Positions 14,885 to 51,700 of a DNA stretch of 64,000 bases are shown here, one piece after another. Numbering within the stretch: position 1 is the first letter of the stretch; each line of letters begins with the position of its first letter. A program made the position numbers and the translations under genes. The notes below the pieces were generated by a model. The model did no database searches and had not been told where the DNA came from. It worked only from the letters and a program-made list of their open reading frames with translations. This DNA is from Flavobacterium wongokense (GTDB taxonomy: Bacteria > Bacteroidota > Bacteroidia > Flavobacteriales > Flavobacteriaceae): assembly GCF_021608265.1 (NCBI RefSeq), contig NZ_JAKIHP010000005.1:62001-126000 (forward strand), written 5' to 3'.

Positions 14885-14918
14885 AATAACTAATAAGGCA
14901 TTAGCCAAAAGATAATAA

Positions 14919-14945
14919 GCCTCGGGATTAACCGGGGCTTTTTTT
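14919..14945 (+). terminator. Rho-independent terminator after gcvP
   Basis: Stem AAGCCTCGG / CCGGGGCTT (one G-U pair) with a GATTAA loop, followed by a T-run. Confidence 0.85.
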
Positions 14946-14956
14946 ATTGCTACAAA

Positions 14957-14980
14957 TTGTTTAGAAAAATTTTATCTTTG
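14957..14980 (+). promoter_or_regulatory. Orphan TAnnTTTG promoter pointing into the OLD gene's 3' end
   Basis: TTG at 14957 and TATCTTTG at 14973-14980, 16 bases apart start to start, directly after the gcvP terminator. No plus-strand gene follows: the next reading frame is only a few codons long and then lies antisense to the OLD-family gene. A palindrome starts immediately downstream, at the expected transcription start. Confidence 0.45.
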
Positions 14981-15014
14981 GTAGTCGACTTGTCTATAAT
15001 CGACAAGTTACTAC
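14981..15014. promoter_or_regulatory. 34-bp interrupted palindrome, candidate operator
   Basis: Inverted arms GTAGT-cg-ACTTGTC and GACAAGT-t-ACTAC around a 7-base centre (tataatc). It overlaps the predicted start point of the orphan promoter, the usual position of a repressor site. It has no T-run on either side, so it is not a typical terminator for the OLD gene that ends at 15048. Confidence 0.5.
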
Positions 15015-15047
15015 ACATTTTCTTGGAAAATCATCAAAATCACCAAC

Positions 15048-16817
15048 TTATAATGAGCCAATTAATTTTGTTTCCATTGTTTTGAAATTTGACTTTGTAT
15101 TTTTAAAATGTTTATTAATTATTTTTTCTCTATTTTTTGAATAAAATAAACTCAATACAAATTTGCAAAAAAGATCTTTATTAGATAAATCCTTTAAATC
15201 AGAATAAGATTGAACTTCAGAAAGATCAAAATAGTCTTCCAACTTTGTATTATTTTTTCCTTCGATTAAATCCAACGTCATAAATTTTCTGCCTTCAACT
15301 TCTCCAAAAAGTTCAACGGCTTTTTTTAATCTAGCCCTACCTTCAGAATCGTTATCCCATAATGCTAAATATTTTTTCCCTAAAAATATCATATAAGGAA
15401 TTTGATTAAGTACAGAAGATGCACTGACGCAAGGGAAGTAAGTAAGTTTATCTCCTGTAAACATCTTAAAACAATAATAATCATAAATTCCTTCTAACAG
15501 AACGATATTATTATAATCAAATTCGATTAATGGCGGGCGAACCTCTAGAGCATCAAATATTGATTGGTAAGCAGAATTATTTTTCGGCCTTACTATTCCT
15601 TTATGATTTAATCTATCTAAAACAATTTTTCCATCTTTATTCTTTTCTGCTAATCGAATGGAATTAATTGGAACAAATTCCGGATTTAATAAATTATGTG
15701 AGTGAGTACAATATATGACTTTATTTTTTATAGAAAGATTTTTAAGCTGTTCAACTAATTTATTTAGGGCAAAAGTATGTAGATATGATCCTGGTTCATC
15801 AAGTAAATAAACTGTATCCTTATCGTCTTCCTCACGTTTATCATGATTGTAGTGAAGTTTAATCATAAAGTTAATATACCAATAGAATCCCTTACTCCTA
15901 TGTGAAATCTTAAAATGTCTGTCTCTTGGTTTCCCATCCACCAAAATAATCTCTACAATATTGAAAATTAAATGAGGTACATTTTCCTTAAGAAGATAAT
16001 CGATTTTAACACTTATATTTTCTGTTTTCTCAAATTTATATTTACTCCACTCCTCTAGTAATTTACTATTTAGTTCTTGTTGAACATCGCTAATAATACT
16101 ATACCTAACACTTTGTTCTCTATTTGGTAAATCATAGACACTATAAGATGCGTCAGTTTGCTTAAAAAGTTCTTCTATATATTCAATCCAATCGCTATCA
16201 CCATCTTCATTAATGGGAAGTTCTTCGGGTAGTCGATCATGAAAATCATCGAAATATAGAACATAAGGTAATTTACGAACAATTTCTCTACAAATTTTAT
16301 CAGCTACATCCTCTGATATTTGTCCCTCAAACGATTTTATAGAATACTTTTTTGTTTTCAAATCTCTATCAATAACCAAGTTATTTGAAGAACTTATTTG
16401 TTTAAGTATTTTTAATCCTTTTACTTCTTCCCAATTTTCTAATTTTACACTATCATCATTAAAGTCGATTTTTTCTAAACTAAATTTAGCGTCAAAGGTT
16501 TCAGAATATAAATTTGTAAACTTTTTTAACGATTCCTCAAAAATGTTTTCAATTTTTTTAAACCCATTATATTCTATTTCCGCTGAAACTATAACAGGTT
16601 TTATTGCGGTTGAATATAAATTTGTGACATTATCTAGATGTCTTCCTCCATTTCTAGAATCATTGAAGTGATCGAAAGCAAAAACTGCTTCTAAAAACGT
16701 AGTTTTCCCACTTTCGTTTTTTCCAATTATAGGAATTAGGGACTCTTTAGAAATGTCAATTTCTGTAATCTCACTGATACCTCGATAACCATTAATAATA
16801 AACTTCTTAAATTTCAT
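15048..16817 (-). CDS. OLD-family nuclease: ABC-type ATPase with C-terminal TOPRIM domain
   Basis: 589 residues. The N-terminal half is an SMC/RecF-like ATPase: Walker A GKNESGKTT (residues 32-40) right after the FKKFIINGYRGI strand, and Walker B YLLDEPG with Asp340-Glu341. The C-terminal half carries a TOPRIM nuclease core: Glu442 in VLLEGIYDYY, and Asp488 and Asp490 in ALWDNDSEG. This order defines overcoming-lysogenization-defect (OLD) nucleases, which nick or cleave DNA in an ATP-regulated way and often act against phage. No UvrD-type helicase is next to it, so it is not a Gabija pair; it reads as a solitary class 1-like OLD. Base use differs from its neighbours: 27% GC in 60 bases from 16021, by hand count. 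It is flanked by repeats, which suggests transfer. Confidence 0.85.
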   Translation of the reverse strand: MKFKKFIINGYRGISEITEIDISKESLIPIIGKNESGKTTFLEAVFAFDHFNDSRNGGRHLDNVTNLYSTAIKPVIVSAEIEYNGFKKIENIFEESLKKFTNLYSETFDAKFSLEKIDFNDDSVKLENWEEVKGLKILKQISSSNNLVIDRDLKTKKYSIKSFEGQISEDVADKICREIVRKLPYVLYFDDFHDRLPEELPINEDGDSDWIEYIEELFKQTDASYSVYDLPNREQSVRYSIISDVQQELNSKLLEEWSKYKFEKTENISVKIDYLLKENVPHLIFNIVEIILVDGKPRDRHFKISHRSKGFYWYINFMIKLHYNHDKREEDDKDTVYLLDEPGSYLHTFALNKLVEQLKNLSIKNKVIYCTHSHNLLNPEFVPINSIRLAEKNKDGKIVLDRLNHKGIVRPKNNSAYQSIFDALEVRPPLIEFDYNNIVLLEGIYDYYCFKMFTGDKLTYFPCVSASSVLNQIPYMIFLGKKYLALWDNDSEGRARLKKAVELFGEVEGRKFMTLDLIEGKNNTKLEDYFDLSEVQSYSDLKDLSNKDLFCKFVLSLFYSKNREKIINKHFKNTKSNFKTMETKLIGSL

Positions 16818-16920
16818 CTGGATAGATTTTGAAATAATATATGTTACAATTTATAACAAAATTGCTTCAAGAATCTAATTTTCAACCTAATATTTTCCAC
16901 CTATTTAAAAAAAAAACGAT

Positions 16921-16964
16921 AGCGCGGATTTGCAACCCGGACAGCGCGGATTTGTAATCCGTGC
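16921..16964. repeat. Two tandem 22-bp REP-like palindromic units
   Basis: Head-to-tail units at 16921-16942 and 16943-16964, both starting AGCGCGGATTTG. The second contains the inverted repeat CGGATT-TGT-AATCCG and can form a hairpin; the first is a degenerate copy (CGGATTTGCAACCCG). Palindromes built on CGGATTxxxAATCCG remind me of the REP sequences mobilised by TnpA_REP (RAYT) proteins in Bacteroidota. No such protein is present in the window. Confidence 0.6.
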
Positions 16965-16982
16965 CTATAGATTTTTTCTCCC

Positions 16983-17708
16983 CTACACCACCCCCGTAAA
17001 CACCACCTGCACCGGGTTAAACTGTTTACTATTACAATAATTCTTATCCCCCAGCACCGTGCGGTGGTCCCATAACAGCAGCTGTGCCGCTACGATAACG
17101 CGGGTACCTTCCGGGAACGGCTGGGTTTCCAGCGTGATGTTAGTAGGACCATGCGATTGCAGCTCAAAACCAAAGACCTCGGTCATCACATTCCTTCCGC
17201 CTTCCGCAGGAAAGCCTACGACCAATATTGCCAGCTCAGCGCCTATATAGTGCATTGGTATTGAATGAGGAATTATCGGTGCTATCGCCACTTCGGGCAG
17301 TTGCACAGTATCATTTTCGGTAATGGTAAAAGGCAGTGCCATCGGCAGGCAGTCCTGCAGCCTGGTGTTAGCATTGAATTCAAACCCCACCAACTCCGAC
17401 AAGTCCGCCGAGAACAACGTCAGGTGTTCCTGGTATCCCTGTGGGAAATGAAAGGCTTTGTGCAGGGCTCCGGTAAGGCGTTGGCTGGCATACGGGTCGG
17501 TGCCCACCAGCAGCAAAGGACGCAACGCATTCCGAATTGCTTTTGATTGCGCCACCGCATATTTAAAATTCGTGGAACTCGCCCGCGTACCCTGGCTTTG
17601 CTTCGGGTTGACCGCGCGGGTCTGCACTATCGATTTGCCATTCAGGCTGCGCACATACAGCGGGCCAATCAGTCCCTGCAGTTGTTGTTTGTGGTGTAGG
17701 TTTGCCAT
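16983..17708 (-). CDS. GC-rich orphan gene, unknown function
   Basis: 241 residues, no signal peptide or membrane segment. The N-terminus (HHKQQLQGLIGPLYVRSLNGKSIVQTRAV) is followed by a helical basic part (KYAVAQSKAIRNALRPLLL, about 48-70) and then a beta-rich C-terminal half (TITENDTVQLPEVAIAPIIP..., AELAILVVGFP, ITLETQPFPEGTRVIVAAQLLLWD). I recall similar uncharacterised proteins in flavobacteria but cannot name a family. Its base composition stands out: 58% GC in the 60 bases from 17041 by hand count, against 27% in the adjacent OLD gene. It has REP-like units at its 3' side and an 11-bp repeat array upstream of its start. Both suggest recent acquisition. Confidence 0.7.
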   Translation of the reverse strand: MANLHHKQQLQGLIGPLYVRSLNGKSIVQTRAVNPKQSQGTRASSTNFKYAVAQSKAIRNALRPLLLVGTDPYASQRLTGALHKAFHFPQGYQEHLTLFSADLSELVGFEFNANTRLQDCLPMALPFTITENDTVQLPEVAIAPIIPHSIPMHYIGAELAILVVGFPAEGGRNVMTEVFGFELQSHGPTNITLETQPFPEGTRVIVAAQLLLWDHRTVLGDKNYCNSKQFNPVQVVFTGVV

Positions 17709-17830
17709 AATCCCGTTCGGTTTAAATTAAACAATGGTTGCTGCCTAACTGCCTTGGTTAAGGCTGTAGTGTGGTTTTTCTCATAAACTGTGCCAGTCTT
17801 GGTCAACATGTGTTCGGGATGCCTTCGGGT

Positions 17831-17910
17831 TGTGTGCGATGTGTGTCCGATTAAAACCCCCTTTACATCGGACACACATCGCACACACATCGGACACACA
17901 TCGGACACAC
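17831..17910. repeat. 11-bp tandem repeats forming a 21-bp perfect hairpin
   Basis: Right part: four tandem 11-mers of the form ATCG(G/C)ACACAC at 17867, 17878, 17889 and 17900. Left part: 17831-17851 is an exact inverted copy of 17867-17887 (21 of 21 bases), separated by a 15-base loop (taaaaccccctttac). It lies about 120-200 bases upstream of the GC-rich gene. Unit length close to one helical turn would place bound proteins on one face of the DNA. Confidence 0.8.
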
Positions 17911-17947
17911 CCTGGATAAAACCACTTGGAAACACACCCTATTACAA

Positions 17948-17982
17948 ATAAAAAAGGCTTCCGGAAATGATCCGAAAGCCTT
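17948..17982 (-). terminator. Rho-independent terminator after the Hsp20 gene
   Basis: On the minus strand, stem AAGGCTTTCGG / CCGGAAGCCTT (one G-U pair), a 7-base loop, then seven Ts. It begins 18 bases after the Hsp20 stop codon. Confidence 0.85.
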
Positions 17983-18000
17983 CTTTGCTCTAACTAAAAC

Positions 18001-18429
18001 TTATTTTATTTCAATCAGCCTTTTTGGTTTTGGCAACGCTTCCTCGCGCTTAGGCAGGGAAATGTTTAAGACACCATTGTCATAGCTGGCCTCGATGGCG
18101 TCGTAATTAACCGTTTCAGGCAGGTTGAAAGTCCTTTTGAACGAGGTGGAAGCGAATTCCTTTCTGGAATACTGCTCTTCATTCACCTCATTTTCAAATT
18201 GCTTTTCACTGGAAACCGTTAAGGTCTTTTGGCTAATCTCTACCTTGAAATCTTCTTTTGCAAGTCCGGGAGCATACACCTCCAGTTTAAAAGTGGTGTC
18301 GTTTTCCTTGATGTTTACTGCTGGGAGCGTGTTGTAATAATTTTGGCTTCCGCCATTCCAGTCAGTCTTAAAAATTTCATCCAATAGAGATGGAAAAGCT
18401 GAATTGTTGCTTCTTTTCACTAAGTCCAT
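18001..18429 (-). CDS. Small heat-shock protein, Hsp20 / alpha-crystallin family
   Basis: 142 residues. The alpha-crystallin domain covers about residues 36-130 (LPAVNIKENDTTFKLEVYAPGLAKEDFKVEI... to the closing GVLNISLPK), followed by the short C-terminal extension with an I-x-I-like end (LIEIK) that mediates oligomer contacts in the family. It is an ATP-independent holdase for unfolding proteins in the cytoplasm. The gene is monocistronic, ending in a strong hairpin, and is divergent from the truncated hemoglobin gene. No CIRCE-type operator was seen upstream. Confidence 0.93.
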   Translation of the reverse strand: MDLVKRSNNSAFPSLLDEIFKTDWNGGSQNYYNTLPAVNIKENDTTFKLEVYAPGLAKEDFKVEISQKTLTVSSEKQFENEVNEEQYSRKEFASTSFKRTFNLPETVNYDAIEASYDNGVLNISLPKREEALPKPKRLIEIK

Positions 18430-42564: not shown

Positions 42565-42849
42565 ATGAGAAAACTACTATTTGCTGTAATAGCATTATTA
42601 GGATTGACTTTGAGTGTAAATGCTCAGGATAAATCAAAAAAAGCGGCTGCAAAACCAGCTACCGAAACAAAAGCACCTTTGAAAAAGGACGGAACTCCGG
42701 ACAAACGCTATAAGGAGAATCAGGCTCCAAAGGCTCCACTTAAAAAAGACGGTACGCCGGACAAACGTTACAAGGAAAACAAAGCTCCGAAAGCGCCTGT
42801 AAAAAAAGACGGAACTCCGGACAAAAGATATAAAGAGAACAAAAAATAA
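42565..42849 (+). CDS. Small secreted Lys-rich repeat protein
   Basis: 94 residues. Signal peptide LLFAVIALLGLTLSVNAQ (about 3-20), then an Ala/Lys-rich stretch and three direct repeats with a 20-residue period, KAPLKKDGTPDKRYKENQAP, each sharing KKDGTPDKRYKEN. The protein is very basic. I do not know a function; the repeat could bind nucleic acid or acidic cell-wall polymers. The ATG at 42565 is chosen because it gives a clean signal peptide; the longer frame from 42496 has no good signal. It precedes a terminator. Confidence 0.8.
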   Translation: MRKLLFAVIALLGLTLSVNAQDKSKKAAAKPATETKAPLKKDGTPDKRYKENQAPKAPLKKDGTPDKRYKENKAPKAPVKKDGTPDKRYKENKK

Positions 42850-48778: not shown

Positions 48779-51700
48779 CTATTCCTTTACAAAACGTTTT
48801 ACAACGATTTGACCATTCTTTTCAATTTCCAGCAAATACATATTGGTCGTCAATCCTGAAACAGAAATCTGCCCATTCTGAACGGTTCCTTTGGCAATTT
48901 GCTGCCCTAATGCATTCAGGATTCTATAGCTTGCATTTTCTGAATCTGAAATGTTCAGGTAATCTCCTTTAACAGGGTTAGGGTATAATTTGACATTGTT
49001 CATGTTAGCCGAAGCATCACTTGGACGGCTGTTCAATCCGCCACAAGTATCGGTTGCAAACGAATCCCATTCGCCAGCCAAATTGAAGGTTGTATTTGGA
49101 GATAAAACAGTAGTTTTTCTTCTCAAGGTAACGTCAATTGCAAAGTTGGCTGTTCCTCCGTCAAAAGTCCCGATGATATCAATCAAAACTCCGTTTTTAA
49201 ATAATCCAACAGCATCGTTACCATTAAAAGTCATCTCATTACCAGCTGTAGAAATATTGGCACTCGCCGAATTGTAACAAGCCAAAGCGATTGAGCTGTT
49301 TACCATGACAAATTTGGCTCCGTTATTCAATGTTCCCGAAAGTGTAATCCCTGTTGACCAAGCTCCTGCTCCATTGGTTTGTTTTTTAACCGTATAGATT
49401 GATAAACTCACCGCTGCACCGGTATTGTTTGCAATTTCCAGTGCTTTATTGTTTGATGAACCTTCAATATATTCAGAGAACATCAAATCGGTTGCATTAC
49501 TGGAATTTGCCAATGTTGTAACGTTGGCCGTATTACTATCTGCAGAAACATTTGAAGCTGCATCTTTTGCTCTTACTGTAAAAGTATAAGCTGTTGAAGC
49601 TGTCAATCCCGTTACTGCATAAGTTGTGGCAGTTGTGGTTGAACCAATCAATGAACCTCCTTGGTACACATCATAACCTGTTACAGCTACATTGTCTGTT
49701 GAGGCTGTCCATGACAAATTGGTGGTAGTCTGTGTCGTTCCCGAAGCGGTTAAACTTGTTGGAGCTGTTGGAGCTGTAGTGTCTGGTGGCGTAAGCGTAG
49801 TTACGTTAGCAGTATTACTCGCAGCTGAAATATTCCCAGCAGCATCTTTCGCTTTTACCGTAAAGGCATAAGCCGTTGATGCTGTCAATCCGGTTACAGC
49901 GTAAGTTGTAGCTGTAGTAGTTGAACCTATCAAAGAAGCTCCTTGGTAAACATCGTAACCCGTAACTGCTACATTATCAGTTGAAGCAGTCCATGATAAA
50001 TTGGTGGTCGTTTGTGTTGTCCCCGATGCCGTTAAACTTGTTGGAGCTGTTGGAGCCGTAGTATCAGCCACTGCAGCCTGAATGTTTACCGTGTAATCTT
50101 CAACCTGTCCGTAAGAGAACGCTTCGCAGGAAGTTGGTACTCCATTATATTTCATCGAAACCCTCATTCTGGTAGTTCCTAAAGTTGCCGTTGCCGGAAT
50201 CGTGATAGAACCTGAAACCGGAGTTGTAGTTGAAGCAGCGTTAGTCCAAACAGTTTCTCCGCTGTCAGTAAATACCCCATTTTGATTGTAGTCGATAAAA
50301 ACTGCATAACCTTCCGGGTAGGCAGTGCTGGTCCATGATGGAGTTACTGTGATTGTATAAGCACTTCCTCTTGTAGCATTTGTAGTTTGCGCCGTAAAAT
50401 TTTCATAACCTGTAGTTCCGGTTGAAGTATTATCAATAGTTCCAAAAACAACTCTTCCAATTTTCTCATCAGCTGTGCTGTTTCCTTGTGAAGAACAATA
50501 AGAAATCGGAGCTGCTGGTGTCGTTACATTGGCTGTATTGCTTGCAGCAGAAATGTTTCCGGCTGCATCTTTTGCTTTTACTGTAAAAGCGTAAGCTGTT
50601 GAACCCGACAATCCGGTTACAGCGTAAGTTGTAGCAGTTGTAGTCGAACCTAATAAAGTTGCCCCTTGATAAACATCATAACCCGTAACCGCAACATTAT
50701 CTGTAGAAGCTGTCCACGATAAGTTAGTAGAATTATATGTTGTGCCTGATGCTGTCAAACTTGTTGGTGCGCTTGGTGCAGTCGTATCAGAAGAACCTGC
50801 TGTAATCGTAAAATTCGCATTGGAAACATCAAAGAAAATATGATTGGTTCCTTTGACCATGATCCTGTTGGTTGTTCCCGGTGTATTCGGAATTGTTACT
50901 GCCTGCGTTCCATCATTTGGCGTAGCCGCCAATAAAGTTGTCCAGGTTGAACCCGCATTTGTTGAAATCAAAATATCAACATTGGCACAATTTACACCAT
51001 TAGCTGTTGTTCCGGCTACTGCCCAGGTAACGGTTTGTGTGCTTCCGCCTACATACGAAACAGCAGTATTTGGTGCGGTTACACTAAATGGCCCCGCAGT
51101 TCCATTAACTGAAATAACCGTATCGTCGCTATTATTTCCCGAACCACCGGCTCTGTTGTCCCGAACCGTCAATCTGAAATTTAAGGTTCTTGCTACAGAT
51201 GATAAGGCTTCAACCGTAATTTCGCTTCCAGCTGTAGTCGTTGCTCCTGTCAATACAGAAGACATTTTTGGAAAATAACGCGTTGGCGAAGTTGTTGGAG
51301 TGTAAGACCTATAATTTACTCCGGTAGTTTTAGTCGCGCTTGGCGCAGCTGCAGTACTTTGTGAGTTCATTTGTTCCCAGCAATAAGTCAATGTATCTCC
51401 ATTGGCATCTGTTCCGCTTCCGGTCAACATAAACGGAGTGCTTTTTGGGATAGTATAATCCAATCCTGCATTGGCAGTTGGAATAGAATTCCCTGTTGCT
51501 GTATTTGTCTGGCAGGTTGTTGTTTTAATAAAATTGGTTACCTGCTGAATGCTTACTGCATGGAAATAAGGATCGGAATGCGCCTGAATGTCCAAGTCCG
51601 TAATTCCTGCATACCCCATAATTGTTGACCCTGAACCTGGCTCCATTTGAACACCGGTTCCCTCATTGCTATGTGTAAAAGTATGGTTCGCTCCAAATTG

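Follow-up and report, generated by a model that had tools for sequence, protein, structure and literature searches.

An accessory interval between gcvP and a globin gene was analysed in a stretch of Flavobacterium wongokense DNA of 64,000 nucleotides (nt; contig NZ_JAKIHP010000005.1, positions 62,001 to 126,000), which as a whole is called the window, and in this interval a gene rich in guanine and cytosine (GC) stands beside an AT-rich gene of the OLD type. Comparison across genomes shows that, as far as sequences can tell, the GC-rich gene is paired in its subfamily with an array of units of 11 base pairs (bp), that copies of the array with the same or a like unit occur in trans, and that the interval was built by stepwise insertion at the gcvP-globin site. 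We consider it reasonably probable that, as a whole, the interval is a composite insertion in which the GC-rich protein binds its own 11-bp units and the OLD protein acts alone.

The GC-rich gene and its array

The gene and the parts of the array are arranged as follows (aa, amino acids; ORF, open reading frame):

16983..17708, minus strand: GC-rich gene, 241 aa, of an unnamed Bacteroidota family, with a basic N-terminal part and, in the model, a C-terminal beta sandwich (ORF, profile searches, AlphaFold)
17867..17910, minus strand (read 17910-17867): four direct 11-bp units (GTGTGTCCGAT, one changed), 202-159 nt before the GC-rich start codon (repeat scans)
17852..17866, minus strand: 15-bp spacer between the arms (arm analysis)
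17808..17851, minus strand (read 17851-17808): inverted arm in four steps of 11 bp, of which two at the start are clear inverted units and the remaining two weak (by eye)

The direct arm scored 85 in Tandem Repeats Finder (TRF; 17865-17910). No other array in the window has four units of period 11 at 86% identity or more, and when periods 8-14 were scanned a single further array turned up, with period 8. Across the subfamily, lag 11 was the best period in the upstream 400 nt of 16 of 17 loci, with L097 as the exception. In the named set L118-L133, 15 loci had sufficient sequence upstream, and lag 11 was best in 14 of these, lag 14 being equally good at L122; four contigs are common to both sets. 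In the upstream 250 nt, lag 11 was uniquely best in 24 of 29 loci as against 2 of 90 neighbour genes (p 1.6e-15, with related loci, several of them close relatives, counted as independent, and with the same-contig duplicates L120, L124, L125 and L129 as well as L123, L134 and L135 left out), and the best-window matches came to 25.3 versus 14.9 in the neighbour genes. The pairing extends to Myroides marinus and to a Pedobacter metagenome-assembled genome, both of which were named members in the subfamily search, as were Flavobacterium aciduliphilum and F. paronense. Its position is nearly constant, the array starting 144-234 nt before the ATG in 24 loci; among five further loci, L097 and L119 fall inside this range, L096 lies at 312 nt, and the best arrays of L106 and L107 are at the edge of the 350 nt searched. 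A terminator before the array was rejected as a rule, a T run being present within 90 nt in only 8 of 24 loci.

In genome G138 each of the three family genes has a unit of its own, so that the unit follows the gene and not the host. The units of 23 loci have the common core TGAGTCYRTA, and unit similarity tracks protein identity (Mantel Spearman 0.56, 0 of 2000 permutations, over 23 loci with L096, L097, L106, L107, L112 and L119 left out). Between the three species with the gene at the gcvP-globin site, the direct units of the gene arrays are 82-93% identical and their flanks 45-55%, so that conservation is higher in the direct units than around them. Over 25 loci the two arms pair at 75% in register versus 77 and 74% when shifted by one or two units (G-U 30, A-C 28); the inverted units thus look like copies of the consensus with no register advantage, which favours protein sites on double-stranded DNA over an RNA hairpin.

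A preliminary description, made from the sequence of the window, had called the GC-rich gene an orphan with no recognised family, and had listed an 11-bp array as one of three unrelated repeat structures. The array is present where it was described, but it is longer and has a second, inverted arm, and it is not unrelated to its surroundings, given that it accompanies the subfamily of the GC-rich gene. Likewise, searches of Pfam, PADLOC, NCBIfam and PHROGs assigned the protein to no family at an expectation value (E) <=1, but many relatives exist and the gene is no orphan: its family is found in 130 of 249 genus genomes (E<=1e-3, six-row profile) and in 26 of 395 phylum genomes at E<=1e-12, from 16 genera and six families. 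When 26 family relatives were searched in Pfam, they gave single matches only, at E 0.016 or worse, with nothing beyond chance level. The window protein falls in a smaller subfamily with 18 places in 14 of the 249 genomes (E<1e-30). A large clade of the family has proteins of about 250 aa that start MARQKG..., and its gene can precede a DUF5675 gene (one case tested). At L097 (4258-5453 and 290-1090) a large-clade gene and then a DUF5675 gene lie near an RteC-like gene (Pfam), possibly a conjugative-element setting; DUF5675 is named in vibriophage papers. No family match was found at E<=0.01 in 50,697 phage records, none was confirmed in viral contigs by pattern scan, and a plasmid search, made with the large clade and not with the window protein, gave one match, in Marivirga.

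The first 90 residues have a net charge of +8 to +16 in all 32 family proteins counted (28 distinct; L112, L119, L134 and L135 left out). Invariant residues are A2, G12, R77, G108 and F109 in one alignment and Q37, T41, F48, R59, R77, G108, F109, F111, N112, N226 and P232 in another. The AlphaFold model, made with 17 sequences (predicted local distance difference test, pLDDT, 83.7; predicted template modelling score 0.76), has three short N-terminal strands, helices and the C-terminal sandwich. A whole-protein fold search gave no useful match, which is not evidence for a new fold. The N-terminal sheet and helix may resemble AP2 or integrase arm-binding domains; none of the searches returned this likeness.

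Solo copies of the array

In the genome of the window (G000) a solo array with the window unit, consisting of four direct and two inverted units, lies at C1:541116-541193 (about 1490-1570 of L142), flanked by a LacI-type regulator gene and a gene for a sugar transporter and without a family gene. Compared with G063, this interval with the array in it has about 210 bp more, and no array was seen by eye at this site in the four relatives read. In the 249 genus genomes, the window unit pair was found in the three orthologue species, where a gene array and a solo array occur once each, and beyond them as single two-mismatch matches in G173 and G211. The solo arrays of the two other species, G148 and G097, are located at a shared pirin-Crp site, where the array is 69% identical and the flanks 52 and 47% (one shuffled flank, 51%). 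An 11-bp array at the corresponding pirin-Crp site of the window's own genome seemed likely by eye and was set aside, not being confirmed.

A second unit pattern gave solo arrays in G154, G138 and G173, all of which have a family gene of like unit, and gene arrays only in G014, G080 and G176. Over both patterns G173 contains eight solo arrays (L196, L203, L205, L208, L209, L212, L213 and L181), and in an alignment of seven of them similarity fades beyond about 150 bp; its own subfamily gene ends early (open frame of 187 aa). Altogether, solo arrays of a like unit occur in 6 of the 14 gene-bearing genomes (family match at E<1e-30) versus 1 of the 235 others (Fisher 6.6e-8), an association partly helped by the fact that both patterns were written from units of gene-bearing genomes, so that other units are under-counted; the two-mismatch match in G211 was left out, and the others would be 2 of 235 if it were counted. 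Beside 14 solo arrays no convincing gene remnant was found, the one weak match (L190, E 0.002) lying on the other strand inside a Crp-like gene. The second pattern also gave a long 11-bp array with units like ATAGTCYATAG at L194 (G017:C15:59743), with no family gene beside it, in a genome that has only weaker family matches and no subfamily gene.

The gcvP-globin interval and its OLD gene

The other features of the interval are these:

14917..14940, plus strand: terminator-like site 3' of gcvP, left edge of the accessory interval (terminator scan; a hairpin and T run also seen by eye after gcvP in relatives)
14981..15014, no strand: imperfect palindrome in the gap from the gcvP terminator to the OLD stop codon (by eye)
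15048..16817, minus strand: OLD-type ATPase-TOPRIM gene, 589 aa, AT-rich, without a partner gene (ORF, Pfam, PADLOC, alignment)
16918..16961, no strand: two 22-bp units like repetitive extragenic palindromes (REP), core CGGATT-N3-AATCCG, after the GC-rich stop codon and before the OLD gene (repeat scans)
17950..17986, minus strand: terminator-like site after Hsp20, immediately before the array (terminator scan)
18001..18429, minus strand: Hsp20 gene, within the inserted interval, without a counterpart within 1.5 kilobases (kb) after gcvP in 29 relatives or in the stretches of G148 and G097

gcvP was matched in 60 of 61 genus genomes, and the best 30 of the 60 places were read, the window's own included. 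None of the 29 relatives has the OLD gene, the GC-rich gene or Hsp20 within 1.5 kb after gcvP (tblastn, E<=1e-4). In nine of them about 80-150 bp separate gcvP from the start of the globin gene; a KAS III gene comes next within the stretch in most relatives, as it does beyond the block in the window. Because of this short distance in the nine relatives, the insertion is taken to span the whole interval from gcvP to the globin gene, about 3.7 kb in the window, Hsp20 included. Searching with the GC-rich protein revealed an orthologue at the same site in two other species: that of G148 (59% identity) adjoins the globin gene, with other genes between it and gcvP, and that of G097 (53% identity) directly follows gcvP. 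Neither the OLD gene nor Hsp20 is present in the stretches read of these two species; by parsimony, the GC-rich gene would therefore be the older resident, with OLD and Hsp20 gained separately. G148 also holds, at L116:6180-6422, a 250-bp 3' remnant of a second gene of the GC-rich family, 84% identical to the full copy and separated from it by other genes, which hints at repeated gains at the gcvP-globin site. In L054 the same interval contains small ORFs that, by eye, we take to resemble an antitoxin-toxin pair and a second antitoxin copy.

The preliminary description had proposed an accessory block that arose by at least two separate gains at one site, and comparing the gcvP-hsp20 interval across relatives supports this: the block is not the same in all of them, and the GC-rich gene is common to two other species while OLD and Hsp20 are not. 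The parts it named were in their places, with the ORFs, repeats and terminator-like sites recovered. The strong GC contrast that it reported between the two genes is also seen in 300-bp windows, with 24-32% in the OLD ORF versus 51-56% in the GC-rich ORF (53% overall), the flanking genes having about 36-49%. It had bounded the block by the terminators of gcvP and Hsp20; the left edge is indeed at gcvP, but the interval extends past Hsp20 to the globin gene. Its orphan promoter is putative: a promoter-like box, TATCTTTG, was seen at 14973-14980 by eye only. A sigma-70 scan gave 13 promoter-like sites versus 11.8 expected, with a consensus that does not cover Bacteroidota promoters, and the same scan gave 3 terminator-like sites versus 2.3 expected. 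No palindrome was seen by eye after gcvP in G148 or G097.

The REP-like palindrome, at up to one mismatch, recurs at three other intergenic places in the same genome near stop codons, and a fourth other match lies inside a gene; the copy at L029 is at the 3' end of another family gene. The Y1 transposase PF01797 was not found in this genome, a control finding it in 5 of 14 genomes. REPs in Flavobacterium have already been reported, as PMC12306157 tabulates such sequences for two Flavobacterium genomes. At L030/L114 (G000:C23:438496) a REP-like unit adjoins an ORF of 234 aa, after which comes sequence resembling short tandem repeats; this may be a further gene family accompanied by repeats. Elsewhere in the window, TRF gave tandem repeats at 42668-42843 (60 bp, 2.9 copies) and 49521-50062 (282 bp, 1.9 copies).

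The identification of an OLD-type ATPase/TOPRIM gene stands. Its protein matches AAA_15 in Pfam (E 1.2e-18), and the Walker A, Walker B and H-loop motifs (GKNESGKT, LLDEPGS, THS) are kept in all eight aligned proteins. The TOPRIM part was assigned by motif, with no TOPRIM profile among the Pfam matches: EGxxD is present in all eight proteins and DxD in seven, E442, G443, D446 and D488 being invariant. When both proteins of the block were compared with defence profiles, as the preliminary description had suggested, the GC-rich protein had no PADLOC profile at E<=1 and the OLD protein matched several, with AriA best (E 1.6e-20, residues 1-375), followed by AbiLi, Old (1.4e-14), HEC-01A and GajA (2.1e-10). 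Against solved structures the sequence of the OLD protein gave nothing at E<=0.01. The neighbours are gcvP, the GC-rich gene and Hsp20, so that it is a single gene without a UvrD-like helicase or a retron; no ORF for a GajB helicase, a feature of Gabija, whose GajA is a class 2 OLD, lies beside it. In PMC10568477 and PMC13261556, class 1 OLD is defined by its context as a single gene, and by this rule the gene belongs to class 1. Relatives at E<=1e-20 were found in 6 of 349 family genomes, the own one included, each in a different genus, and weaker matches in two further genus genomes of a smaller genome set (E 5e-19 and 2e-7); the neighbourhoods of seven relatives looked unlike one another by eye.

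In being a single gene with an N-terminal ABC-type ATPase and a C-terminal TOPRIM motif, the OLD gene of the window is like the class 1 genes of P2 (Old), Thermus scotoductus (OLD) and E. coli (YbjD/OldB); it differs in having no sequence match to solved structures, and its nuclease activity is putative. PMC13261556 gives class 1 OLD genes in 0.45% of bacterial genomes, calls stand-alone OLD genes rare and poorly understood, and reports anti-phage phenotypes of E. coli YbjD. To this group our gene adds one further stand-alone example. It is by virtue of the OLD gene only that the block is a plausible defence locus; judging from its class, the OLD protein would most likely counter phages by itself as an ATPase-nuclease, with no part played by the GC-rich gene.

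Readings of the gene-array pair

We infer that the GC-rich protein binds the array, and a DNA-binding protein with matching sites is ranked first as the most likely reading, with spread of the array as its main rival. Comparison with the two other species suggests that the GC-rich gene and its two-armed 11-bp array would have come first, and parsimony that this lineage would have separately gained a class 1-like OLD towards gcvP and Hsp20 towards the globin gene. The protein would be a sequence-specific DNA-binding protein whose basic N-terminal part assembles on direct and inverted units spaced by about one turn of the helix, both beside its own gene and at the solo arrays. Two outcomes are conceivable: the protein could regulate the expression of its own gene together with a few further places, or it could maintain the array and spread it.

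Several observations weigh against this reading. No clear array was found at L097, at L123 (143 nt upstream) or at the distant L134 and L135, and the idea that the array typifies the large clade was discarded, the array being clear in some members only (31 loci; mean of 0.786 for period 11 versus 0.790 for period 8 and 0.800 for period 10). An inverted unit better than shuffled ones at p<=0.05 was found in only 19 of 29 loci, and between the three species the inverted arm is 54-63% identical, hardly above the flanks. The correlation of unit and protein could be due to common descent alone. A Bacteroidota-type promoter box between array and gene was also rejected, with 5 of 24 loci versus 3.1 in shuffles. 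A purely regulatory role is weakened by this lack of a promoter box and by the G173 solo arrays L196, L203 and L205, which lie between convergent genes, an odd location for a promoter operator. The protein model does not tell the function either: the C-terminal sandwich resembles fibronectin type III-like domains (Z up to 6.2, root-mean-square deviation 3.1, 91 aligned), a common arrangement, and the N-terminal part alone gave a low-confidence model (pLDDT 68.6) with a best structure match at E 0.74. Finally, the folding of six arrays as RNA gave z values of -5.1 to -6.2 for those of the window, L110, L128 and L133, with -2.2 for L098 and -1.1 for L126.

These strong predicted hairpins in four of the six arrays speak for an array that is transcribed as a structured RNA and bound by the protein, either as an attenuator or as an RNA antitoxin of the type III toxin-antitoxin kind; the tandem repeats before the gene resemble those of ToxIN, and a basic N-terminal part would suit RNA as well as DNA. 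We regard such an RNA as very unlikely, and an RNA hairpin was dropped as the principal reading of the array: the register test over 25 loci was negative, with neither an advantage of in-register pairing nor a G-U excess, solo arrays have no family gene behind them, and the GC-rich protein matched no toxin family in the four libraries. Another reading is a new mobile or selfish repeat system, in the manner of REP and REP-associated tyrosine transposases (RAYT), in which the protein would move or copy the array and the solo arrays would be its non-autonomous copies. No convincing gene remnant lies beside the 14 solo arrays, the seven aligned arrays among the eight of G173 lose their similarity outside about 150 bp, and the longer lacI-transporter interval contains an array that four relatives appear to lack. 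Mobility is weakened, in turn, because the invariant residues suggest no recognisable catalytic set and the distance to the start codon is nearly constant; with the array before the gene (the upstream side being the one examined formally), the 144-234 nt of the 24 loci fit a regulatory link better, and no clear target duplication was established. We hold this system to be unlikely.

With regard to the OLD gene, it might form one two-gene defence system with the GC-rich gene, the two being neighbours in a single accessory block, on one strand and with 165 bp between them. This seems hardly credible, considering that the GC-rich orthologue occurs without OLD at the site in both other species, that no gene of the GC-rich family was seen by eye in the ORFs around seven OLD relatives, and that the two genes differ strongly in base composition and have the REP-like units between them. 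Alternatively, the OLD gene could encode a fused PARIS protein (AriA-AriB) or another AAA_15 defence protein rather than a class 1 OLD, AriA being the best PADLOC profile, ahead of AbiLi, Old and GajA. The AriA match, however, is confined to the ATPase half, while the second half contains the TOPRIM motifs EGxxD and DxD; there is no separate AriB-like gene beside OLD among the listed ORFs, and the 25 PADLOC matches listed, out of 42, include no AriB profile. This assignment is quite unlikely in our judgement, and a class 1-like OLD protein that acts alone is retained.

As to known systems, DNA-binding proteins that occupy direct repeats of one helical turn include those of PhoB-type 11-bp sites and of integrase arm-type sites. 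The array shares with these its tandem 11-bp units about one turn apart and a basic protein part; it differs in that the protein has no family or fold match, the unit varies by locus and an inverted second arm is often present. In REP/RAYT systems, according to PMC3733652, one gene goes with a matching DNA repeat of which solo copies exist in intergenic regions. The GC-rich gene likewise has a matching array and intergenic solo copies, a dispersal that agrees with those systems only in general terms. Unlike them, its own genome has no Y1 (HUH) transposase and the protein matches none, the repeat is an array of 11-bp units instead of a single hairpin, and solo copies number one to eight per genome with the two patterns used. 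The pair is thus like known protein-repeat pairs in layout, minus the protein feature that defines the nearest of them.

Open-literature searches on the family, the array and REP-type repeats found no account of this family or of the 11-bp array, and an unnamed protein with its own DNA repeats suggests an undescribed pairing. It is conceivable, if doubtful, that the pair represents a new class of protein-plus-repeat element of Bacteroidota, in which the protein would know its own 11-bp unit and spread the array to solo sites while unit and protein co-evolve, a third kind beside REP/RAYT and the pairs of transposons with miniature inverted-repeat elements. The family occurs in about half of the sampled genus genomes (130 of 249), yet no name for it was found. 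The copies in trans offer a handle on its function, since they provide a predicted binding site and natural variants by locus, and the solo sites indicate where its effects may be. If the pair does spread its repeat, it would be a type of mobile element not based on known transposases.

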